From positions 1-39,147 of the forward strand of contig JAIXSO010000044.1 of the NCBI GenBank assembly GCA_027484685.1: a DNA stretch of 39,147 nt, read 5' to 3'. Under the pieces are notes generated by a model. It saw nothing but the letters and a program-made list of their open reading frames with translations. It did no database searches and was not told the DNA's origin. A program made the position numbers and the translations under genes. The DNA is from Bacteroidota bacterium. Its GTDB lineage: Bacteria > Bacteroidota > Bacteroidia > UKL13-3. This document shows positions 1-10,501 of the stretch, piece after piece (position 1 is the stretch's first letter; each line of letters begins with the position of its first letter).

Positions 1-204
1 CCAACTAACGGCTTGGTACAAATACAAAGCCCTGTAAACATGCAAAGCATTTTGGTTTTTGATATAACAGGTAAACAATTGTTACAACAAGAACCCAATA
101 CCCAAGCAGACGAAATAAATATAAGCCACTTACCACAAGGTTTGTATCAAATACATATTCAAACAGAAATGGGTGTAGTGGTAAAAAAATTGGTGAAAGA
201 GTAA
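1..204 (+). CDS. C-terminal end of a T9SS type A sorting-domain protein (partial)
   Basis: The reading frame is open from the first base, so the gene starts outside the window. The visible end reads PTNGLVQIQ, then ILVFDITGKQLLQQ, then LPQGLYQIHIQ, and finishes with a basic VVVKKLVKE tail. This is the usual pattern of the Por_Secre_tail (type A) sorting domain: an NPTNG-like turn, a DxxGK strand, a G-x-Y strand and a short basic end. Known family role: it directs a cargo through the type IX secretion system, after which it is normally cleaved at the cell surface. The cargo function cannot be told from this fragment. The TTG at base 13 is an internal Leu codon, not the start. Confidence 0.85.
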   Translation, partial: PTNGLVQIQSPVNMQSILVFDITGKQLLQQEPNTQADEINISHLPQGLYQIHIQTEMGVVVKKLVKE

Positions 205-238
205 AATCTTTTAATTAAACTTCATTTCTTTTGGCACG

Positions 239-266
239 GTAGAGACGTTTAATGCAACGTCTCTAC
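239..266. repeat. Short family A-related hairpin
   Basis: The 9-bp arms GTAGAGACG and CGTCTCTAC form a perfect inverted repeat around a short loop. It matches the outer arms of the longer family A repeats seen elsewhere in the first 10.5 kb. It lies between the sorting-domain gene and the 3' end of the first WG-repeat gene, so it could end transcripts from both sides, although no T-run follows it. Confidence 0.75.
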
Positions 267-289
267 AAAACACAAACCCATTCCAGTAA

Positions 290-1339
290 TTATTTATTTT
301 CAATCAGGTTTCCTTTTAAATCATATTTAAACGAATTGGCTAAAGTTTCTGCTCTTATGTGGTTAATGTGTTCGGTATGTTCGTTACGTTCATTGAAGTA
401 TTCAAAATAAATATGCTCATAAATGATTGGTATAATTACTTTTCCAGTAATATCAATAATGCCAAATTTATTATTTTCTTCTATTTTACAAATACCATCA
501 AAAAATCTATTTATTTCAAATCTTTCTCCTTCGGTCATATCCTTCATTCCTTCAGAATTTATGTTATTTTCAAACCTAGGTTCAATAATTACTTTGCCTG
601 TTGAATCAATAAAACCTAGTTTGTTTCTGAACACAACTGGGTAAATTGGATTTTGACAAGGGAGTAATGTTTCATTATATTTCAAACCTACATAATCATA
701 AATTAAGGGTAATACCACTTTACCATTTTCATTTATTATACCAATTTGATAATGAAAATAAACATGTTCTTTTCCATTGGAAATATTTTCGCTTTCGTAT
801 TTAAACACATTTGGATAAAAATTTCCCCATTGGTCAACATAATTCTTATATTTATAACTTAGCATATCTTCTGATGAAAGATCATAAATATTATGGTAAT
901 CTAAAACATTGTTTTTTCTATCACATACTAAAAAGTCAAAATTATATCTTTCCTTATTCAATATACTTCCAACAACTTTATAGTTATTAAAGCTACTATC
1001 AGGATACAATAAAGTCCAGTAATTAATAATTATTGAATCATCTGAAGCATGATAATAATAAGGAACATTTAGGTTAATAAGAGAAAAAAAAGGAGCAGAC
1101 CTTGCAATTGTAGCCAAGCCAAATTTATTGAAGTTTCCAATGCTAATATAAATTGGAGGAGTTATGCAAACGGTATCATCTAAATAATTTGGTTTATTTA
1201 TCTGCTTGATACCATAGCTATCACCATCCCATAAGCCACGATAAGCAAAAGATTTTTGTGCTTTTGCAGTAAATACAAATAAGCTTTGTAAAAGTATAAA
1301 TATACCAATAGTTATTTGATGTTTTTTTGTTTTTTTTAT
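290..1339 (-). CDS. WG-repeat secreted protein, copy 1, with lost start codon
   Basis: Close paralogue of the gene at 3051..4100. The frame is open and aligns along the whole length, including a signal peptide (HQITIGIFILLQSLFVFTA then KAQ). WG-repeat units are visible as KLGFIDSTGKVIIEP and KFGIIDITGKVIIP, each followed by a Y/F strand; this repeat is known from many bacterial envelope proteins but has no fixed function. The paralogue starts with ATG-CTT-GCA; here the matching codons (1328..1336) are AAA-AAA-ACA, and there is no in-frame ATG, GTG or TTG near the signal peptide. The first usable codon is a TTG at 1117, which would drop the signal peptide and about 70 residues. It is either a fresh pseudogene or starts at a rare codon such as the ATA at 1337..1339. 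Confidence 0.7.
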   Translation of the reverse strand: MKKTKKHQITIGIFILLQSLFVFTAKAQKSFAYRGLWDGDSYGIKQINKPNYLDDTVCITPPIYISIGNFNKFGLATIARSAPFFSLINLNVPYYYHASDDSIIINYWTLLYPDSSFNNYKVVGSILNKERYNFDFLVCDRKNNVLDYHNIYDLSSEDMLSYKYKNYVDQWGNFYPNVFKYESENISNGKEHVYFHYQIGIINENGKVVLPLIYDYVGLKYNETLLPCQNPIYPVVFRNKLGFIDSTGKVIIEPRFENNINSEGMKDMTEGERFEINRFFDGICKIEENNKFGIIDITGKVIIPIIYEHIYFEYFNERNEHTEHINHIRAETLANSFKYDLKGNLIENK

Positions 1340-1380
1340 AAAGGTAATATAAAGTATTTTGAAGGAAATTATTAATCGGT

Positions 1381-1450
1381 GCGGGAAATGTAGAGACGTA
1401 ACATGTTACGTCTCTAATAAAAAAAGACGTTGCGTGCAACGTATCCACAA
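1381..1450. repeat. Family A double-hairpin repeat, copy 1
   Basis: Starts with GCGGGAAA, then the palindrome GAGACGTAAC/GTTACGTCTC, an AATAAAAAA linker, and a second hairpin GACGTTGC/GCAACGT. It sits between the diverging WG gene (minus) and the leader of 1528 (plus). Confidence 0.85.
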
Positions 1451-1475
1451 AATTCAAAACCATTCCAATAATTTT

Positions 1476-1527
1476 CCCAAACAAAACGTTTTAGGTTTGG
1501 TCTTTATTTTATTAATATTGTTTTACC
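1476..1527 (+). promoter_or_regulatory. Conserved cassette leader, copy a
   Basis: Begins CCCAAAC, continues with the 10-bp palindrome AAAACGTTTT, then AGGTTTGG, then TTTATTTTATTAATATTG, and ends in ACC right before the ATG of 1528. Outer arms CCAAAC/GTTTGG are complementary. Five more copies precede other genes here. TTTG and TAATATTG resemble Bacteroidota promoter boxes, but the gap is only 13 nt against the usual 19-20, so the promoter assignment is tentative. Confidence 0.8.
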
Positions 1528-2160
1528 ATGAAAGCTAAAATACTACTAATAATAACCTCTTTTGTTTTATTCCATAACAACGGAATTTGTCAAAAAAACA
1601 AAACAAAGCCCAAGTATAGTTATTCCTTAAAATATGTAAACATTGATACAATAAAAGATGTAGTTTATTTTAAAGTAGGGGTTTTAGTAAAGCAAAATAG
1701 TTGTTTTGGGAGCAAAAAAATCCCTTATCCTGTATTTGTTACACATTTAAGAACTGATGAAATAGATTCATTTGCTTATACCCCAAATAAAAATTTAATT
1801 AGTAATCTTTCATTGTACATACTTGATAGTAATGGCACTAAATTTTATCTTCACCCTGCTTTTGTTGATTGTGGCAGAGATTTTCCATCTTTTTTCAATA
1901 AGTATATTTATCTTAAAAAAAACACATCAACTTTGATTGAATTATTGATTGATTACAAGTATTTAAATGCTAACACAAAAAATCAATCAAAGCGAAATAA
2001 CTGTTATGTTGATGGCCGTTTTTACGAGAAAATTAGGTGGGGTGATACAAAAATAAATGATTATAAGAAAATAGTAATTGGCTCAACTGTTATTCACAAT
2101 GAGTTCAAAATTAAAAATACTATTTACTATGGATCTAGCGTAATTTTGAATAGCCAATAA
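1528..2160 (+). CDS. Secreted protein of unknown function (210 aa)
   Basis: Not recognised. The N-terminus MKAKILLIITSFVLF is a signal peptide, with a likely cleavage near the ICQ before KNKTKP. The mature part is mixed beta-rich and charged, with several aromatic residues and four or five Cys (CFGSKK, DCGRDF, NNCYVD). There is no lipobox, no T9SS tail and no membrane segment after the signal. The start is well set: the conserved leader ends exactly at this ATG and the first codons (MKxKIL) match those of 4291, 5614 and 9612. Family A and B repeats follow within about 165 bp. It is probably periplasmic or surface exposed; the function is open. Confidence 0.75.
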   Translation: MKAKILLIITSFVLFHNNGICQKNKTKPKYSYSLKYVNIDTIKDVVYFKVGVLVKQNSCFGSKKIPYPVFVTHLRTDEIDSFAYTPNKNLISNLSLYILDSNGTKFYLHPAFVDCGRDFPSFFNKYIYLKKNTSTLIELLIDYKYLNANTKNQSKRNNCYVDGRFYEKIRWGDTKINDYKKIVIGSTVIHNEFKIKNTIYYGSSVILNSQ

Positions 2161-2169
2161 TTCTCACTG

Positions 2170-2239
2170 TGCGTGAAATTGTAGAGGCGTAACATGTTAC
2201 GTCTCCAATAAAAAAGACGTTGCACGCAACGTCTCTACA
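2170..2239. repeat. Family A double-hairpin repeat, copy 2
   Basis: GCGTGAAATT, then GAGGCGTAAC/GTTACGTCTC, the AATAAAAAA linker, and GACGTTGC/GCAACGTC with a CTCTAC end. The second loop reads AC instead of GT and keeps the stem. Lies just after the stop of the gene at 1528. Confidence 0.85.
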
Positions 2240-2279
2240 GATGGTTTTTTCTTATTTCAATTGTTTTTCCGTTGGCATG

Positions 2280-2308
2280 GTAAAGACGAGATTAATCGCG
2301 TCTCTGCG
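2280..2308. repeat. Short family A-related hairpin
   Basis: GTAAAGACG then ATTAAT then CGCGTCTCTGC, an imperfect inverted repeat like those at 239..266 and 10502..10530. It is preceded by TTGGCATG, as the first copy is by TTGGCACG, so the flank is part of the repeat. Confidence 0.6.
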
Positions 2309-2322
2309 GCATATCAACTGTT

Positions 2323-2396
2323 GTTCGACCCCTTAGGGGTCGCATATTTATAGCCTCATGTGTTTCTATAAACATACGACCCCAAAGGGGTCGAAC
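2323..2396. repeat. Family B hairpin repeat, copy 1 (74 bp)
   Basis: Arms GTTCGACCCC and GGGGTCGAAC pair across the whole element. Inside them a second pair, ATATTTATAG and CTATAAACAT, extends the stem, leaving a short loop near 2356..2366. Each end is also a mini-hairpin (CGACCCC/GGGGTCG). Two more copies lie at 5450..5523 and 9448..9521. Confidence 0.85.
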
Positions 2397-2456
2397 AGAC
2401 GAGCAAACGTTTTAGTTATAGATAAATAAATTTAAGGGTAATGAGTTTCAATTTTT

Positions 2457-2464
2457 TATATTTG
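2457..2464 (+). promoter_or_regulatory. Putative -7 box of the TA operon
   Basis: TATATTTG fits the Bacteroidota -7 consensus TAnnTTTG and lies 23 bp before the antitoxin ATG. No clear TTTG was seen at the -33 position. The conserved cassette leader is absent here, so this operon has its own promoter. Confidence 0.5.
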
Positions 2465-2487
2465 TAAAAACAATAATTATTAATAAA

Positions 2488-2682
2488 ATGAAAGGTGTAA
2501 GCTATATAACAGATGATAAAAACCGTAAAAAAGCTGTTGTTATTGAAATGAAAACTTTAATTGAGCATGAAGAGGAAATTGAAGATTTATTTGATGTAAT
2601 CATTGCTGAATCGCGAGCAGAAGAACCAACAGTGGCTTGGGAAGAGGTAAAAGCGCAACTAAAGAAAAAAGGTAAACTGTAA
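2488..2682 (+). CDS. Type II antitoxin, partner of the RelE/ParE toxin
   Basis: Small acidic protein of 64 residues directly upstream of a RelE/ParE toxin with a 2-bp gap, the classic antitoxin-first order. The N-terminal half (YITDDKNRKKAVVIEMKTLI) looks like the short beta-hairpin of Phd/RelB-like antitoxins. The C-terminal half is Glu-rich (EHEEEIEDLF, AEEPTVAWEEVKAQL) and ends in a Lys tail, typical of a toxin-wrapping helix; it resembles small Bacteroidota antitoxins with an EEVKAQLKKKGKL-type end. Expected role: neutralise the toxin and repress the operon. The exact antitoxin family is not certain. Confidence 0.8.
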   Translation: MKGVSYITDDKNRKKAVVIEMKTLIEHEEEIEDLFDVIIAESRAEEPTVAWEEVKAQLKKKGKL

Positions 2683-2684
2683 TT

Positions 2685-2942
2685 ATGTACAGTATTGTTT
2701 TAAAAAAATCGGCTCAAAAAGAATTGAGTAAGCTACCCACAATTATTGTAAAAAAAATAGCTACTGTAATTGATGATTTGGCAAGTAACCCTCGTCCTGT
2801 TGGTGCAAAGAAATTGGAAGCGCAAAAAAATGAATTATGGCGAGTAAGATCAGGAGATTATAGAATTGTTTATAGTATTGAAGATGTGGTAAAAGTTGTA
2901 GAAATTCAAAAAATAGGTCATAGAAAAGATATTTATAAATAG
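2685..2942 (+). CDS. RelE/ParE-family toxin
   Basis: 85 residues, full family length. It opens with a strand (MYSIVLKKSAQKEL), continues with a helix pair containing KLPTIIVKKIATVIDDL, then NPRPVGAKKLEAQK and the hallmark WRVRSGDYRIVYSIED (about 52-67), and ends with IQKIGHRKDIYK. The central WRVR-x-GDYR-x-Y motif and the closing GHRKDIY are typical of RelE/ParE toxins. Known members cleave mRNA on the ribosome (RelE) or inhibit gyrase (ParE); the sequence does not settle which, though the C-terminal H-R-x-x-I-Y is common in the RelE branch. It is translationally coupled to the antitoxin and flanked by family A/B repeats on both sides. Confidence 0.92.
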   Translation: MYSIVLKKSAQKELSKLPTIIVKKIATVIDDLASNPRPVGAKKLEAQKNELWRVRSGDYRIVYSIEDVVKVVEIQKIGHRKDIYK

Positions 2943-2960
2943 AAAACCTTCCTCAGACGT

Positions 2961-3029
2961 GCGGGAAAACGTAGAGACGTAACCTATTACTTCTCCAATA
3001 AAAAAGACGTTGCGTGCAACGTCTCTACA
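2961..3029. repeat. Family A double-hairpin repeat, copy 3
   Basis: GCGGGAAAAC, a decayed first palindrome (GAGACGTAAC / CTATTACTTCTC), AATAAAAAA linker, and an intact GACGTTGC/GCAACGTC second hairpin. It lies between the toxin stop and the 3' end of the second WG gene. Homology with the 239..266 flank begins in its right arm. Confidence 0.8.
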
Positions 3030-3050
3030 AATGCCAAACCCATTCAATAA

Positions 3051-4100
3051 TTATTTATTATCAATCAGGTTTCCTTTTAAATTGAATTTAAAAGAATTGC
3101 CTAAATTATCTTGGGAGGTTATATAATGAATATGTTCATAAGGTATGTCGTGTTTATTGGTAAACTCAAAATAAATATGCTCATAAATGATTGGTATAAT
3201 TACTTTTCCAGTTGTATCAATAATGCCAAACTTATCATTTTCTTCTATTTTACAAATACCATCAAAAAATCTATTTATTTCAAATCTTTCTCCTTCGGTC
3301 ATATCCTTCACTCCTTCAGAATTTATGTTATTCTCAAACCTTGGTTCAATAATTACTTTACCCGTTGAATCAATAAAACCTAATTTGTTTCTGTAAACAA
3401 TTGGATAAATTGGATTTTGACAAGGGAGTAATGTTTCCTTTTCTTTCAAACCAACATAATCATAAATAAGAGGTAAAATAACTTTACCATTTTCATTTAT
3501 TAGTCCTTCTTGTTCATGAAAAAAGATTAGTTCACTTCCATTCAATACATTTTCAGTATAAAAATTAAACACATTTGGATAAAAATTTCCCCATTGGTCA
3601 ACATAATTTTTATGTCGGGGAGAACCAAGCATATCTTCCATTGTAAGATTATAAAAATTAGGGTTATGTAAAACATTATTTTTACTATCACTTATTAAAA
3701 AGTCAAAATAATATCTTTGCTTATCCAAAACACTTCCAACTACTTTATAGTTATTAAAGCTACTATCAGGATAAAAAAAATACCAGTAATTAATAATTAC
3801 AGAATCATCTGAAGGATGGTAATAATAAGGAGTTTTTGGATTAATAAGAGAAAAAAAGGGCGCAGACCTTGTAATTGTAGCCAAGCCAAATTTATTGAAG
3901 TTTCCAATATAGTGATAAATTGGAGGGGTTATGCAAATCGTATCTGAATAATTTTGTATGTTGATTTGCTTTAATCCGTAGCCATCACCAACTCCTAAGC
4001 CATAATAAACAAATGATTTTTGTGCTTTTGCAGTGAAAACAAACAAGCCTATTAAAAGAATAAATATACCAATAGTTATTTGATGTTTTTTTGCAAGCAT
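3051..4100 (-). CDS. WG-repeat secreted protein, copy 2 (intact)
   Basis: 349 residues. Signal peptide: MLAKKHQITIGIFILL then FVFTAKAQ, with cleavage likely after KAQ. WG-like units follow as NKFGLATI, QEGLINENGKVILPLIYDYV, KLGFIDSTGKVIIEP and KFGIIDTTGKVIIPIIYEHI, spread over the mature part. A stretch of about 74 residues covering the last two units differs from copy 1 (290..1339) at only about three places, while the middle differs far more. WG-repeat proteins are found in envelopes and in effector or immunity loci, with no fixed activity known. The ATG is supported by the signal peptide right after it. It diverges from the gene at 4291, with family A copy 4 and leader b between them. Confidence 0.85.
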   Translation of the reverse strand: MLAKKHQITIGIFILLIGLFVFTAKAQKSFVYYGLGVGDGYGLKQINIQNYSDTICITPPIYHYIGNFNKFGLATITRSAPFFSLINPKTPYYYHPSDDSVIINYWYFFYPDSSFNNYKVVGSVLDKQRYYFDFLISDSKNNVLHNPNFYNLTMEDMLGSPRHKNYVDQWGNFYPNVFNFYTENVLNGSELIFFHEQEGLINENGKVILPLIYDYVGLKEKETLLPCQNPIYPIVYRNKLGFIDSTGKVIIEPRFENNINSEGVKDMTEGERFEINRFFDGICKIEENDKFGIIDTTGKVIIPIIYEHIYFEFTNKHDIPYEHIHYITSQDNLGNSFKFNLKGNLIDNK

Positions 4101-4143
4101 AACAAAGGCAATATAAATTTTTTTGAAGAAAATTATTAATTGA

Positions 4144-4212
4144 TGCAGAAAATGTAGAGACGCAACACGTTACGTCTCCAATAAAAAAGATGTTGCACTT
4201 AACGTCTCTACA
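4144..4212. repeat. Family A double-hairpin repeat, copy 4
   Basis: GCAGAAAATG, then GAGACGCAAC/GTTACGTCTC, the AATAAAAAA linker, and a decayed second hairpin (GATGTTGC / TTAACGTC) ending CTCTACA. Same position relative to the WG gene and leader as copy 1. Confidence 0.8.
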
Positions 4213-4238
4213 AAACTCTAAACCATTCCAATAATTTT

Positions 4239-4290
4239 CTCAAACAAAACGTTTTAGGCTTGGTGTTTATTTTATTAATATTGTTATACC
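4239..4290 (+). promoter_or_regulatory. Conserved cassette leader, copy b
   Basis: Same element as copy a with two changes in the outer arms (TCAAAC and GCTTGG); the AAAACGTTTT core and the AT-rich part up to ACC-ATG are unchanged. The preceding 30 bp (AAACCATTCCAATAATTTT) are shared with copy a too. Confidence 0.8.
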
Positions 4291-5412
4291 ATGAAATCCA
4301 AAATACTATTTTTTATATTATTTACTTTACAAATGGCATTTGCTCATGCACAATACATTAACCTAAGTGGAATGAAAGTTTACACTCAGCTTGCGGATGA
4401 TTCTGATGGTGAAGGGGAATATGTTAGCACAAGAATGTTATATAATTATAATTCACCAAATGATTCTATTTATGATGAAATAACATATAGCTATTATAAA
4501 GATGGTAGATTAAAAAGAACAGAATTTGAACATGTGTATTTACATGCAACTTTAAATTACTACATTTATGATGAAAATTTAAATAAAATATTAGAATATA
4601 ATGTAAACATTTTAGATTCAACCGTAAATGCTAAATATTACAAGAATGACAACTTAGTTGAAGAATACAATTTTAATTGTAAACAATTTTCTAAAATCTT
4701 TTCTTATATGTCAGTTACTGAAGTATGGAGAATTTGGGATTACATTAAAGGTGTGCACCCCAATGAAAAATATGACCAATACGGTATTGAAATATTTAAC
4801 CATGAGGCAATATTTTATGATTCAATTGGTGCAATTATTAGTAAACATGTATTAAATGAGGATTACTTTGAGTATTTAGGTGATTCAATTTTATTGTATT
4901 TTGAAAGAGGGCCAATTCACTTTATCAAATATCCAAGAATGGATTTGCGTTTTTTTTACCCAGACGATTGGAAAGATAAACTTTATAGTTTAGTGATGAA
5001 AGCATATAATGTTAATGGAATTGAAATGAAATATTTTTATAAAAATGGTGCTTTGGAAAAGCATATAGTTCAAGATACCATAATTAAATTAGAAAATGCT
5101 TTTGACAATAAATACTATAATGTAATTTATTTAAAAGAAAAGAGATATGATAAAAAAGGTAAACTCATTCAAATAATGCGGTATCCATTAAATTTTTGTG
5201 TAGATATTATGCTGGAAAGATATAATGATATTGAAGGTCCTGATGGTTTTTCGCCAATTAAATCTACTGACAAACTTGTAGATTCTGAAAATGGCCCCAA
5301 TTACGATTATATTTCAGCTTCACAAATTCAAGCAGACTTTATGAAAAAACAATTGGAGGTACTAAAGATATACTCTTATTCAAAAATATTAAGGAAAGGT
5401 AATCAAAAATAA
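4291..5412 (+). CDS. Secreted protein with MORN/YwqK-like strands (373 aa)
   Basis: Function not recognised. Signal peptide MKSKILFFILFTLQMAFAHA with a cleavage after AHA, giving a mature start of QYINLSG. The mature part carries repeated short strands of the type Y-Y-K-D-G-R-L (about 70), YDENLNKILEY, YKNGALEKH and YDKKGKLIQI. These resemble the tandem strands of MORN/YwqK-like proteins, though the spacing is irregular and the link is weak. No lipobox, T9SS tail or internal membrane segment was seen. The start is fixed by leader b and the shared MKxKIL opening. It may be a surface or periplasmic protein. A fragment of a family A repeat (5418..5432) and family B copy 2 follow. Confidence 0.75.
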   Translation: MKSKILFFILFTLQMAFAHAQYINLSGMKVYTQLADDSDGEGEYVSTRMLYNYNSPNDSIYDEITYSYYKDGRLKRTEFEHVYLHATLNYYIYDENLNKILEYNVNILDSTVNAKYYKNDNLVEEYNFNCKQFSKIFSYMSVTEVWRIWDYIKGVHPNEKYDQYGIEIFNHEAIFYDSIGAIISKHVLNEDYFEYLGDSILLYFERGPIHFIKYPRMDLRFFYPDDWKDKLYSLVMKAYNVNGIEMKYFYKNGALEKHIVQDTIIKLENAFDNKYYNVIYLKEKRYDKKGKLIQIMRYPLNFCVDIMLERYNDIEGPDGFSPIKSTDKLVDSENGPNYDYISASQIQADFMKKQLEVLKIYSYSKILRKGNQK

Positions 5413-5449
5413 AACCTTGCGGGAAAACGTAAATTAGTTTCAAACCGTT

Positions 5450-5523
5450 ATTCGACCCCTTCGGGGTCGCATATTTATAGCCTAATGTGTTTTTATAAAC
5501 ATACGACCCCAACGGGGTCGAAC
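5450..5523. repeat. Family B hairpin repeat, copy 2 (74 bp)
   Basis: ATTCGACCCC/GGGGTCGAAC arms and the ATATTTATAG / TATAAACAT inner arms as in copy 1. The mini-hairpin loops are TTC and AAC here. It follows a truncated family A end (GCGGGAAAACGTA at 5419..5431), as if B had replaced most of an A copy. Confidence 0.85.
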
Positions 5524-5560
5524 ATAAGAACAAAGGTTTTACATTTTATTCCAATCATTT

Positions 5561-5613
5561 CCCAAACAAAACGTTAGTAGGTTTGGTGTTTATTTTATTA
5601 ATATTGTTATACC
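5561..5613 (+). promoter_or_regulatory. Conserved cassette leader, copy c
   Basis: CCCAAACAAAACGTT then AGTAGGTTTGG: one base longer and with a broken core palindrome (ACGTTAGT). The AT-rich half, from TGTTTATTTT to ATACC-ATG, is identical to copy b. Confidence 0.8.
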
Positions 5614-6438
5614 ATGAAATTCAAAATCCTGATTATATTTCTGATAGTTTTTATTGCCTGTGGCAATGAAAATAAACAGAGAATAAACTTTGATTCTACT
5701 AATGAACTATTAAATAATAAAGGCAAAGAAATAGACTCTTTCAAAACTTTATTATCAAATGCAAATGATTCAACATTGTTTAATCACTTATTATCTCTGG
5801 TACAGGAAATAAAATTCGAAAATTCACTTAAAAGCACTCAAAATCCTCAACTTAAATATTTAAGACCAAAAGAAATAAAAGGAGTTACAATAGGTTTAAC
5901 CTCAAATTCTAATAATGAATTGGATGAATTTAAAAAACTATTTTTAAAAATAAATTTAAAGCCAAGATTAATACCTAGTATCATAAATGTATATGATGTA
6001 AAGAAGAAAGTAAATTTTACTTTCAATAAAAGTGATAATGTAATTTTTGATACAGCCGAATTTGTTAATTTTTCAATTTCGATTAAAAGTAAAATTAGTT
6101 TATTTAACAATAATATTATTGTTTTAGTAATCACAATTTCTACAGGAATTGGAATGAAAGGTGATGATATGTTTCTAGTTAGTTTTCATCCAAATGGTAG
6201 TGCAATTGATTGTATTGAATGGTTAGACACACTTTGCGGTGAAAGTTCTATTGAACCAAAGGTTGATTCAAAAAAAGATTTTCATTTTAGATGTACTGAA
6301 TGTGAAAGTAGTTTTTATAAAGATGAGTTTAAAGTTCAAAAAGAATACATACTTGATTATTCGGTACGAATTAATGAAAAAGGAAAATTTTTACTTTTAA
6401 AGAATAAACTTAGCAGTGTTTCAATGAAAAATAATTGA
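5614..6438 (+). CDS. Lipoprotein of unknown function (274 aa)
   Basis: MKFKILIIFLIVFIAC then GNENKQ: a type II signal peptide with FIAC lipobox and lipidated Cys16, so it should be anchored in the inner or outer membrane. The mature part has a Ser/Asn/Lys-rich helical first third, a beta-rich centre (GVTIGLTSN, IIVLVITISTGIGM) and a Cys cluster near the end (CGES, FRCTECESS) that could hold a metal or form disulphides. It closes with YSVRINEKGKFLLL. No family was recognised. The start is fixed by leader c and by the shared MKFKIL opening with 9612. The gene stands alone between its leader and the next leader 27 bp after its stop. Confidence 0.78.
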   Translation: MKFKILIIFLIVFIACGNENKQRINFDSTNELLNNKGKEIDSFKTLLSNANDSTLFNHLLSLVQEIKFENSLKSTQNPQLKYLRPKEIKGVTIGLTSNSNNELDEFKKLFLKINLKPRLIPSIINVYDVKKKVNFTFNKSDNVIFDTAEFVNFSISIKSKISLFNNNIIVLVITISTGIGMKGDDMFLVSFHPNGSAIDCIEWLDTLCGESSIEPKVDSKKDFHFRCTECESSFYKDEFKVQKEYILDYSVRINEKGKFLLLKNKLSSVSMKNN

Positions 6439-6465
6439 AAGAAACATTTAAATCTTTATCATTAC

Positions 6466-6517
6466 CCCAAACAAAACGTTTTACATTTGGTGTTTATTTT
6501 ATTAATATTGTTATACC
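6466..6517 (+). promoter_or_regulatory. Conserved cassette leader, copy d
   Basis: CCCAAAC, AAAACGTTTT, ACATTTGG, then the shared AT-rich half up to ATACC-ATG. The right outer arm has changed (CATTTGG). It starts only 27 bp after the stop of the upstream lipoprotein and no family A or B repeat lies between them. Confidence 0.8.
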
Positions 6518-7501
6518 ATGAACAAAATAGCAATCCTTTTTATTTTAAATCCTTTTTTAGCAATTAGTCATTGCTTTTCTCAGGAAATAACTCCTTTTCG
6601 AGTTCAAGAAAAATGCGGGTTCACTGTAAAAGATGCATCAGGAAAAGTAATATCACATGTTGATGCTACGTTTAATGGTTTAAGAATTCATGCAAATTCA
6701 GTTTTAAATACAGATCTTACTCTTTACATGGATTTTGGAGATAATTTATGGTCGAATTTTGTTGATACTATTTTTACTGAAAGTCCTTGCCACAAAGATT
6801 CTGCTGACGATTGTTACAACGTAGATACTAGTGTAGTTTATGGTCGTAAATTCTTTAACAAAAACATTATGGCATTACGAAAAAAATGGGGCTTGATTGA
6901 CTATAAAGGGAATGTTATTTTGCCTTTTATTTATGATAGTATTTTGGTTTATAGGAGACATTTTTTACCAAATAGTAAAGACTCAGAATACAAACTGCCC
7001 TATCTTTTACTTTTTAAAAACAATAAAATGGCTGTTTGTGATAATAAAGGAAAAATTATTCTCAACGAAAATATACAGCAAATAATTAACAAGAATATTT
7101 CAGCAAAAGTTAAATACGATATTTTAGACTTTACGCTTATTGGAAAAAATTTATTAGTAGCCAAAGATGCAGTTTATTATGATTCATCGTTTGTGAAAAT
7201 TACTAAAAATGCAGAGATAGGTATAGTAAATAATGATACTATGTATTATGATCATTTTATACGCATCAATAATAAAGGGTTTGTTGGAGGAAGTTATAAT
7301 GTGCTCAATCTTGAAACTGGAAAATATATATTTGAAAAATGGCAGAAAAAAGTGGTAGTTAAAATAAGTTCAAGGTATAAAGATAATAACTATTATATCT
7401 TGGATATAACCAATGGTAATTCAATAACAGAGTATTTAGATAATTTTCAACATACAGAAATTTTGGAAGGATATAATATCACATTTGAAACTGCTAAATA
7501 A
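6518..7501 (+). CDS. WG-repeat secreted protein, divergent member (327 aa)
   Basis: Signal peptide MNKIAILFILNPFLAISHCF with cleavage near CFS-QE. WG-type units appear as KCGFTVKDASGKVISHVD (about 33-50), KKWGLIDYKGNVILPFIYD (about 122-140) and NKMAVCDNKGKIILNEN (about 170-186). The second is a textbook unit: WG, then DxxGxxxxPxIYD. The C-terminal third is not repeat-like. It is much more distant from the 290 and 3051 genes than these are from each other, so it is an older relative rather than a new duplicate. Unlike those two it lies on the plus strand behind the conserved leader. Role unknown; secretion is likely. Confidence 0.8.
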   Translation: MNKIAILFILNPFLAISHCFSQEITPFRVQEKCGFTVKDASGKVISHVDATFNGLRIHANSVLNTDLTLYMDFGDNLWSNFVDTIFTESPCHKDSADDCYNVDTSVVYGRKFFNKNIMALRKKWGLIDYKGNVILPFIYDSILVYRRHFLPNSKDSEYKLPYLLLFKNNKMAVCDNKGKIILNENIQQIINKNISAKVKYDILDFTLIGKNLLVAKDAVYYDSSFVKITKNAEIGIVNNDTMYYDHFIRINNKGFVGGSYNVLNLETGKYIFEKWQKKVVVKISSRYKDNNYYILDITNGNSITEYLDNFQHTEILEGYNITFETAK

Positions 7502-7557
7502 ATTAAAGACTTGCAGCGCAACTTCTATATAAAATTCAAAACCATCCCAATAATTTA

Positions 7558-7609
7558 CCCAAACAAAACGTTTTAGGTTTGGTATTTATTTTATTAATAT
7601 TGTTTTACC
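7558..7609 (+). promoter_or_regulatory. Conserved cassette leader, copy e
   Basis: CCCAAAC, AAAACGTTTT, AGGTTTGG, then TATTTATTTTATTAATATTG and TTTTACC-ATG. Upstream bases 7530..7557 (AAAATTCAAAACCATCCCAA) also match copy a, so the conserved block is about 80 bp here. A remnant of a family A right end (GCAGCGCAACTTCTA) lies at 7513..7528. Confidence 0.8.
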
Positions 7610-8131
7610 ATGAAAAAAATAATACTCATTATATTTCTATTATTTAGTTTAAATGCATTCTCAGACTGGCAAGAGGAAACGCCAAATGGAAAAATAATGA
7701 CTGATGTGTGGTTAAATGTAAAAGGTATGTACTTACAAGGAATAGAAGAATTTTATTTTTACGATGATTGTGTAATTGGTAAAAGTAGTACATCTTATGG
7801 CGATTTTAAATCTGGTTATTTTGTTATTAATGAAAAAACTGGTAAGATTGATACTTTTAACACTGAACAAGATTGGAAGACGTTTATAAAATTACACGAT
7901 TTGGAGCCATGGATTTGGAAAAGAACCTATACTGAAGGATGGAGTGTTTTAACATTTGGATTTATTTTAGCGCTTATTGCTTTTAGTATACCAATTTTTA
8001 TTATTTACAGAATACTAAAGACAGCTATCAATATGAACCGATTCAAAAAACCTTCTAGAATTATTGCTTTAATAATTATTGGCTTATTTGTATTAAGGTA
8101 TTTGTTAGATGAATTTCCAGGAAGTATTTAA
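7610..8131 (+). CDS. Membrane protein of unknown function (173 aa)
   Basis: MKKIILIIFLLFSLNAFSD is a signal peptide or first membrane segment. A soluble part of about 85 residues follows (WQEETPNGKIM to WKRTYTEGW), then two hydrophobic segments: about 112-132 (TFGFILALIAFSIPIFIIY) and about 147-163 (IIALIIIGLFVLRYLL), with basic RFKKPSR between them. The short soluble part would be periplasmic, and the protein sits in the inner membrane. No family was recognised. Its stop is 16 bp before the start of the FGE-like gene at 8148, which has no leader of its own, so the two are probably one transcript from leader e. Confidence 0.75.
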   Translation: MKKIILIIFLLFSLNAFSDWQEETPNGKIMTDVWLNVKGMYLQGIEEFYFYDDCVIGKSSTSYGDFKSGYFVINEKTGKIDTFNTEQDWKTFIKLHDLEPWIWKRTYTEGWSVLTFGFILALIAFSIPIFIIYRILKTAINMNRFKKPSRIIALIIIGLFVLRYLLDEFPGSI

Positions 8132-9341: not shown

Positions 9342-9353
9342 AAAATTAACCTG

Positions 9354-9424
9354 CGCGGGAAATTGTAAAAACGTAACACGTTACGTCTCCAATAAAAAAG
9401 ACGTTGCGTGCAATGTTTCTAAAA
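9354..9424. repeat. Family A double-hairpin repeat, copy 5
   Basis: GCGGGAAATTG, AACGTAAC/GTTACGTC core (outer GAGA lost on the left), AATAAAAAA linker, GACGTTGC/GCAATGTT second hairpin. Begins 12 bp after the stop of the FGE-like gene. Confidence 0.8.
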
Positions 9425-9447
9425 ATACAAACCCAATTATAACTATT

Positions 9448-9521
9448 GTTCGACCCCATCGGGGTCGCATGTTTATAGCTTAATTGTTTTCTATAAACAT
9501 ACGACCCCGATGGGGTCGAAC
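9448..9521. repeat. Family B hairpin repeat, copy 3 (74 bp)
   Basis: GTTCGACCCC and GGGGTCGAAC arms. Here the inner loops are exact complements (CCCCATCGGGG on the left, CCCCGATGGGG on the right) and the inner arm is ATGTTTATAG / CTATAAACAT, a perfect pair. Copies 1 and 2 have ATATTTATAG, so this copy keeps or restores pairing. Confidence 0.85.
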
Positions 9522-9560
9522 GTTACAACAATGGTTTGTAATCCATTTCATCATTTTTTT

Positions 9561-9611
9561 CCAAACAAAACGTTTTAAGTTTGGTGTTTATTTTATTAAT
9601 ATTGTTACACT
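9561..9611 (+). promoter_or_regulatory. Conserved cassette leader, copy f
   Basis: CCAAAC, AAAACGTTTT, AAGTTTGG, then TGTTTATTTTATTAATATTG and TTACACT-ATG. The outer arms CCAAAC/GTTTGG stay fully complementary even though the linker changed from AG to AA. Confidence 0.8.
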
Positions 9612-10376
9612 ATGAAATTCAAAATACTATTCCTAGCAATAATAATAACCACCTTATTTTCTTGCAATGAAAACAAGAACAATGAAATGTGTTTGAAATA
9701 TTCTACCTCCTTTATAAACAAAGAAACGCAGCGTTTGGTTAACCAGATAAATGATTACTATAACTTCAACCGAACTGATAAAAAAGGAATTGTATTTAAA
9801 AATAGACTAGTAATGATTGAAGCTGGTTATGAGAAGCTTTCAAACAAAATCAAATCATCTGACAATATTGAATTGAACAGAATTGCCCTGGAAGGCTTTT
9901 GTTTATTAGTAAAAAACTATTTGGTTGGGAACAAATATGCTGATTCGTTACAGCTGCTTGTTTTAAATACCAATCAAGAAATTTTGAACATAGCCAGCCT
10001 AATTAGATACGAGGCTTTAAATAATTTGGTAAACGATTTTTTTAAAACACTTGATATTATTTACGACTTTGATTATAATTATTATGCTAATGCTGATACC
10101 ATAAAACTATCAGAAGCTTTTAAAGGATTTGTTACTTATGAATTTTCATCAACCCAAAATAATGAATACAAAGACTACAAAATACTAAGTACAAAAAGAA
10201 ATGGCAAAGCTATAGAAAAATTGGAAATTCAATTAGCCCCAAATAACAGGTTATTTATAATTAAACCGGAACAAATTGGTAATTATGAAATCAATTTGGA
10301 GTACAGTAGAACAAGTAATTTACAACCTTACAAAAAAGCGTATCCATTACAAATAAAATTTGTAGTGGTGGAATAA
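9612..10376 (+). CDS. Lipoprotein of unknown function (254 aa)
   Basis: MKFKILFLAIIITTLFSC then NENKNN: type II signal peptide, lipobox LFSC, Cys18. Residues about 25-160 look mainly helical (ETQRLVNQINDYYNF, KLSNKIKSSDNIELNRIAL, LLVLNTNQEILNIASLI). The last 90 residues look like a beta domain (GFVTYEFSSTQNN, KLEIQLAPNNRLFIIKPEQI, YPLQIKFVVVE). The layout loosely recalls the helical plus Ig-like build of GldM-type proteins, but there is no membrane helix and the similarity is too weak for a call. The start is fixed by leader f. It is the last gene of the repeat-rich region; family A copy 6 follows 18 bp after its stop. Confidence 0.75.
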   Translation: MKFKILFLAIIITTLFSCNENKNNEMCLKYSTSFINKETQRLVNQINDYYNFNRTDKKGIVFKNRLVMIEAGYEKLSNKIKSSDNIELNRIALEGFCLLVKNYLVGNKYADSLQLLVLNTNQEILNIASLIRYEALNNLVNDFFKTLDIIYDFDYNYYANADTIKLSEAFKGFVTYEFSSTQNNEYKDYKILSTKRNGKAIEKLEIQLAPNNRLFIIKPEQIGNYEINLEYSRTSNLQPYKKAYPLQIKFVVVE

Positions 10377-10394
10377 ATACACCAAATAAACCAT

Positions 10395-10463
10395 TGCGGG
10401 AAAACGTAGAGACTTAACATGTTACGTCTCCAATAAAAAAGGCGTTGCGTGCAAAGTCTCTAC
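10395..10463. repeat. Family A double-hairpin repeat, copy 6
   Basis: GCGGGAAAAC, GAGACTTAAC/GTTACGTCTC, AATAAAAAA linker, GGCGTTGC/GCAAAGTC, CTCTACA. This is the last family A element; none was found in the remaining 28.6 kb. Confidence 0.85.
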
Positions 10464-10501
10464 ATTGGTTCTCAATAATTTCAATTGTTTTCTATTGGAA
10501 A

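Follow-up and report, generated by a model that had tools for sequence, protein, structure and literature searches.

An open WG-repeat frame without a canonical start codon beside its intact paralogue in a Bacteroidota genome: probably a very young pseudogene

We describe a tandem pair of WG-repeat genes in which one copy keeps a fully open reading frame and has lost its ATG start codon through a compact replacement of about ten bases. This copy (copy 1) is probably a pseudogene that is very young or only beginning to decay. The pair lies in the window, the whole stretch of 39,147 nt of contig JAIXSO010000044.1 that was analysed, and the evidence comes from one genome of the species, as read from its assembly consensus.

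The following features are referred to below.

290..1339, minus strand: copy 1, an open WG-repeat frame of 349 sense codons and TAA, with no ATG, GTG or TTG at its head
1337..1339, minus strand: in-frame ATA, a candidate near-cognate start; the product would begin MKKTKKHQITIGIFILL (MKKTKKHQ...)
1330..1339, minus strand: replaced patch at the start of copy 1; 8 of 10 bases differ from three close homologues; the change gives rise to two tandem AAAAAAAC units
1115..1117, minus strand: TTG, the first canonical in-frame start of copy 1, past the signal-peptide-like part
3051..4100, minus strand: copy 2, the intact paralogue, with an ATG-CTT-GCA start, a signal-peptide-like N-terminus and WG repeats
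243..1545, no strand: left duplicated unit, 84.5% identical to 3005..4308 in a self-BLAST comparison
3005..4308, no strand: right duplicated unit, from the same comparison
1340..1416, minus strand: 5′ flank of copy 1 common to copy 2, including a palindromic GAGACGTAACATGTTACGTCTC repeat
473..546, minus strand: run of 74 nt identical in both copies, which may be a short conversion tract; coordinates set by eye

Results

A WG-repeat frame open from end to end

Copy 1 opens downstream of a TAA at 1408..1406 and translates without an internal stop to its own TAA. The preliminary description had reported such an open frame, aligning with copy 2, and both points stood; an in-frame scan also bore out its statement that no ATG, GTG or TTG comes ahead of the TTG at 1117..1115. 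The earliest in-frame ATG is found at 865..863. The protein is 77% identical to that of copy 2 over residues 3–349, it belongs to the WG_beta_rep family (PF14903; three stretches, E 1.6e-13, 50.9 bits against a Pfam cut-off of 25.6), and the three gaps in the coding part of the DNA alignment of the two copies are each 3 bases long; taken together, these observations argue that copy 1 is no chance frame. Copy 2 matches the same family, also in three WG stretches (E 1.2e-17, 64.1 bits, cut-off 25.6), while structure prediction for it gave no usable model (mean pLDDT 33.8). We looked in copy 1 for a stop or a frameshift, by translation and by alignment with copy 2, and found none; the start is the sole sign of decay.

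Stop-to-stop frames of 150 codons or more, 148 of them, were selected from a 239-kb sample of the 4.5-Mb genome (window included); the first canonical start of copy 1, 96 codons into the frame, came latest of all, and the runner-up had its first canonical start 41 codons in.

Besides the WG gene, the left duplicated unit takes in the 5′ flank and the opening codons of a plus-strand gene that runs divergently. The 5′ flanks of the two copies are 87% identical over 188 bases, and the N-terminal signal-peptide-like part of copy 1 is present in full. A promoter scan of positions 1..6000 gave no signal (36 sites versus 39.0 in shuffled sequences); the leader of copy 1 has a predicted fold with z of −3.1, with stems mainly from the palindromic repeats.

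Homologues and polarity of the start loss

A search of the whole genome (G000 below, completeness given as 99.87%) at E ≤ 1e-5 found the two copies only; because the contig breaks 290 bases past the end of copy 1, a further, collapsed copy in the genome is not strictly excluded. At the same threshold no homologue was found in 9 other genomes of the genus. The family search matched 11 of 64 genomes, with full-length homologues in G000 and in two relatives, G015 and G019 (one match each); 8 weak partial WG matches were left out of the homologue counts. In the order search, made over the same 64 genomes, three genomes matched at E ≤ 1e-20. In an evenly sampled set of 395 genomes of the class, which includes G000, two genomes had matches among those listed (five candidates scored per genome): G000 itself and the distant G385. 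Searching genome contigs with copy 2 alone gave no further homologue, and searching viral contigs gave none, the window's own or very near records possibly being left out of both collections. The genome-contig search with the alignment gave three loci, two of which (L016 and L017) agree with G015 and G019, the third (L018) being a weak partial match (25%, residues 166–332). A keyword literature search on WG repeats in Bacteroidetes returned nothing beyond ice-binding proteins.

At the aligned start, copy 2, G015 and G019 all carry ATG, inside a common GTTATGCTTG, from which it follows that ATG is ancestral and the loss in copy 1 derived. The longest ORF of G019 begins at another ATG, 21 codons upstream of the aligned one, and the distant homologue in G385 is ATG-started as well. 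Copy 1 has thus no canonical start where its homologues have one: the codon there is AAA, preceded by ATA.

A compact patch replaces the start

The codons of copy 1 at 1336..1328 read AAA-AAA-ACA and face ATG-CTT-GCA of copy 2, as the preliminary description had seen and the alignment confirmed. With start columns numbered so that the A of ATG is 0, the patch occupies the ten columns −3..+6; all ten are identical among copy 2, G015 and G019, and copy 1 differs from them in 8. Its departures in conserved columns are few on either side: 1/14 at −40..−16, 1/10 at −15..−4 and 0/14 at +7..+23. The tandem AAAAAAAC pair that results in copy 1 is unique within the window. When the alignment of the two copies was shuffled, 1% of shuffles contained 8 or more differences within some 10-nt window. 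In the real alignment two windows reach this level, one at the start and one next to a gap ∼470 bases further downstream, and the clustering by itself therefore does not single out the start; with 9-nt windows the maximum of the cluster test falls elsewhere than the start. The patch is most simply explained, we infer, by one templated replacement.

It is quite improbable, in our estimate, that the patch is an error of assembly or consensus, or a minority strain allele, at an A-rich site of a draft contig. The sequence there does read A8-C-A7, the draft assembly is in 72 contigs with one contig end about 1.3 kb away, and a similar paralogue, copy 2, stands 2.8 kb off. Against such an error, the patch is a same-length replacement with no change in homopolymer length; moreover, as its sequence differs from that of copy 2, it is no simple chimera of the two copies.

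A second minus-strand frame (1221–1484; 87 codons, TTG start), not in phase with the WG repeats, runs through both A-runs of the patch without a stop. Entry from this frame (1484..1221) into the WG frame by frameshifting or slippage was considered and set aside: it needs a +1 (or −2) shift, as judged by eye, and a terminator-like hairpin at 1442..1427 intervenes.

Selection and age of the start loss

Between the copies dN is 0.136 and dS 0.379 (345 codons). Selection was assessed with a purpose-written codon model, unchecked against a standard program, on four sequences with the start columns excluded; G385 was excluded as too distant. Copy 1 had an omega of 0.24, and copy 2 and the rest had 0.14 each; the difference between the copies was not significant (p 0.46), and omega = 1 was rejected, moderately, for each copy (p = 0.009 for copy 1, p = 0.017 for copy 2). 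With omega free on every branch, the estimates were 0.22 for copy 1, 0.17 for copy 2, 0.05 for G015, 0.83 for G019 and 0.08 for the internal branch. With an internal branch of about 2 to 3, the distance of the copies from the outgroups is saturated, and the apportionment of change between copy 1 and copy 2 is weaker for it. The codon model shows that copy 1 has been under purifying selection since the duplication.

In the AT-rich copy 1, 6.9% of neutral substitutions create a stop, a stop hazard of 71 per neutral substitution per site. Without selection, the chance of an open frame would fall to 5% after 0.042 substitutions per site (the 95% bound), or about 12% of the copy 1 branch (about 0.36). 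A long-standing pseudogene is therefore rejected: even at 0.093 substitutions per site, from the fit with omega = 1 for copy 1, the probability of no stop is 0.0013. The traces expected of relaxed selection in a pseudogene, omega moving toward 1, stops and frameshifts, were not found in copy 1, and an omega of 0.24 with no stop and no frameshift is compatible with a pseudogene only if the loss is recent. Given purifying selection and the absence of stops, a copy 1 that is unselected now would have kept its start until about the final tenth of its history. Two possibilities follow: a recent start loss, or a gene that remains in use.

An in-frame AUA as a near-cognate start

The preliminary description had called copy 1 a frame lacking any start codon. 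This holds for ATG, GTG and TTG; given the in-frame ATA at 1339..1337, the wording is too strong. ATA is among the rarer start codons of NCBI table 11, and initiation at AUA is far weaker than at AUG. As the chief alternative to a pseudogene, copy 1 might still be a gene, weakly translated from this AUA (or from an AUU at 1348..1346) into a low-dose exported protein with a signal-peptide-like start; we consider this unlikely. The poor initiation at AUA speaks against it, as do the ATG starts of the four other near-full-length homologues (copy 2, G015, G019 and G385), the sampled frames, none of the other 147 of which has its first canonical start nearly so far in, and the lack of any sign of selection after the start was lost. 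What speaks for weak translation is the fully open frame, the purifying selection along the branch of copy 1, and the string ATA-AAA-AAA-ACA-AAA-AAA, which by eye heads the signal-peptide-like part. PMC12350097, with reference to Hecht 2017, counts both AUA and AUU with the seven codons that initiate most strongly in E. coli.

In a more specific form, which seems to us distinctly unlikely, copy 1 would function as a gene that naturally starts at AUA; after the duplication, a one-step swap of its start context to a weak AUA and an A-run leader would have led to two near-equal exported WG proteins at different doses. Copy 1 may in this respect offer a Bacteroidota case of near-cognate (AUA) initiation.

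Gene conversion between the copies

The preliminary description had also proposed that copy 1 may be a storage copy for gene conversion, pointing to uneven divergence between the copies as a sign of patchwork. The unevenness is real at the protein level (pN of 0.06 for codons 240–322 versus 0.17 for codons 120–190); synonymous differences do not cluster significantly (P 0.12 for the longest difference-free stretch, P 0.30 for the lowest 40-codon window), and the proposed conversion patchwork is not borne out at these sites. In the most divergent codon windows (101–200) omega is 0.54–0.73; being below 1 even there, it gives no sign of diversifying selection. The 74-nt identical run at 473..546 was matched in none of 5000 position-preserving shuffles; in codon terms it spans 24 identical codons, for which codon-column shuffles give P = 0.004, and the strongest deficit of differences between the copies relative to the G015/G019 pair also falls there, at P = 0.06. 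A short conversion tract at this place is possible.

That copy 1 serves as a silent donor, feeding variants into copy 2 by gene conversion, is in our judgement highly improbable. It would account for an intact frame without a canonical start and could draw on the identical run just described, but the genome search found two copies only, G015 and G019 have single matches, synonymous patchiness is not significant, and copy 1 retains both its N-terminal part and the flank upstream of it. No series of variant silent cassettes was found in the genome. Nor did we find the absence of promoter and 5′ end that would mark a silent copy: the flank, which may carry a promoter, is kept at the identity given above and the N-terminal part is whole. 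With two copies found in the genome search, no cassette set found and both the 5′ flank and the signal-peptide-like start in place, we drop the storage copy as the main reading. The broader claim of silencing at the start codon survives in part, as a start loss in a formerly constrained gene, with an ancestral ATG, a derived loss and a history of purifying selection.

Neighbourhood of the two copies

An upstream block of ∼55 bases (AAACAAAACGTTTTA..TTTGGTGTTTATTTTATTAATATTGTTATACC-ATG, with variants) is common to six plus-strand genes. The blocks lie at 1462–1533, 4225–4310, 5548–5634, 6458–6529, 7544–7633 and 9556–9631, and the genes start at 1528, 4291, 5614, 6518, 7610 and 9612; by eye their bodies are largely unrelated and their signal-peptide-like starts similar. 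Pairwise BLAST pieces of the blocks are 82–93% identical, and among the 40 of 123 candidates scored, matches in the genome fell only within the window. The block resembles a promoter cassette that an array of exported-protein genes has in common. One gene of the array (plus strand, 6518–7501) has one weak WG-repeat stretch (28.1 bits against the cut-off of 25.6).

Two kinds of repeat were seen. Palindromic TAGAGACGTAACATGTTACGTCTCTA / AGACGTTGCGTGCAACGTCTCTAC repeats stand between genes at 239–268, 1391–1448, 2175–2239, 2965–3029, 4148–4212, 9345–9435 and 10395–10464, with matches also on contigs C15, C32, C36, C39 and C60 (40 of 123 candidates scored). Inverted repeats of CGACCCC..GGGGTCG hairpins stand at 2322–2397, 5451–5524 and 9447–9521; in a scan of positions 1..6000, the first two had a terminator-like form on both strands. 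Between the WG copies there is a small toxin-antitoxin-like pair (2488–2942): one member matches ParE_toxin at E 1.1e-11, and ahead of it stands a RelB-like match that is weak and falls short of the Pfam cut-off (E 0.0036).

Discussion

We favour the following course of events. A gene for a WG-repeat exported protein was duplicated along with its 5′ flank, as the paired units show, and both copies diverged under purifying selection, as the codon model shows. A compact and probably recent mutation then swapped about 10 bases across the start of copy 1 for A-rich sequence repeating the adjacent AAAAAAAC, the patch seen in the alignment; its cause may have been polymerase slippage, template switching or some other single templated event. 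With no AUG, GUG or UUG to start from, copy 1 would make none of the exported protein or much less of it, and the frame would still be open only because there has been too little time for stops or frameshifts to arise. Counted against a pseudogene are the in-frame ATA with the signal-peptide-like start that remains, the retained 5′ flank and the absence of other decay.

The start loss is an ordinary find in a small tandem duplication, with no pointer to a new system. At most, copy 1 is a clean snapshot of such a loss, in which the frame, the selection history and the mutation patch are all readable.

Gonococcal pilS/pilE and the vmp/vls loci of Borrelia resemble the pair in that a silent-looking copy adjoins an intact gene; unlike them, copy 1 comes without a cassette set, its 5′ end is not truncated and conversion is not demonstrated. 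As in other WG-repeat exported proteins (PF14903), each copy has three WG stretches and, by eye, a hydrophobic signal-peptide-like N-terminus, whereas the lineage is narrow here: among the genomes searched, it consists of the two copies, single genes in two family relatives and one distant homologue in the class sample. The likeness to bacterial start-loss pseudogenes that follow tandem duplication lies in one paralogue keeping its start while the other has lost it by local mutation, with the frame still readable; copy 1 differs from them in that a single patch, not a point substitution, replaced its whole start context.
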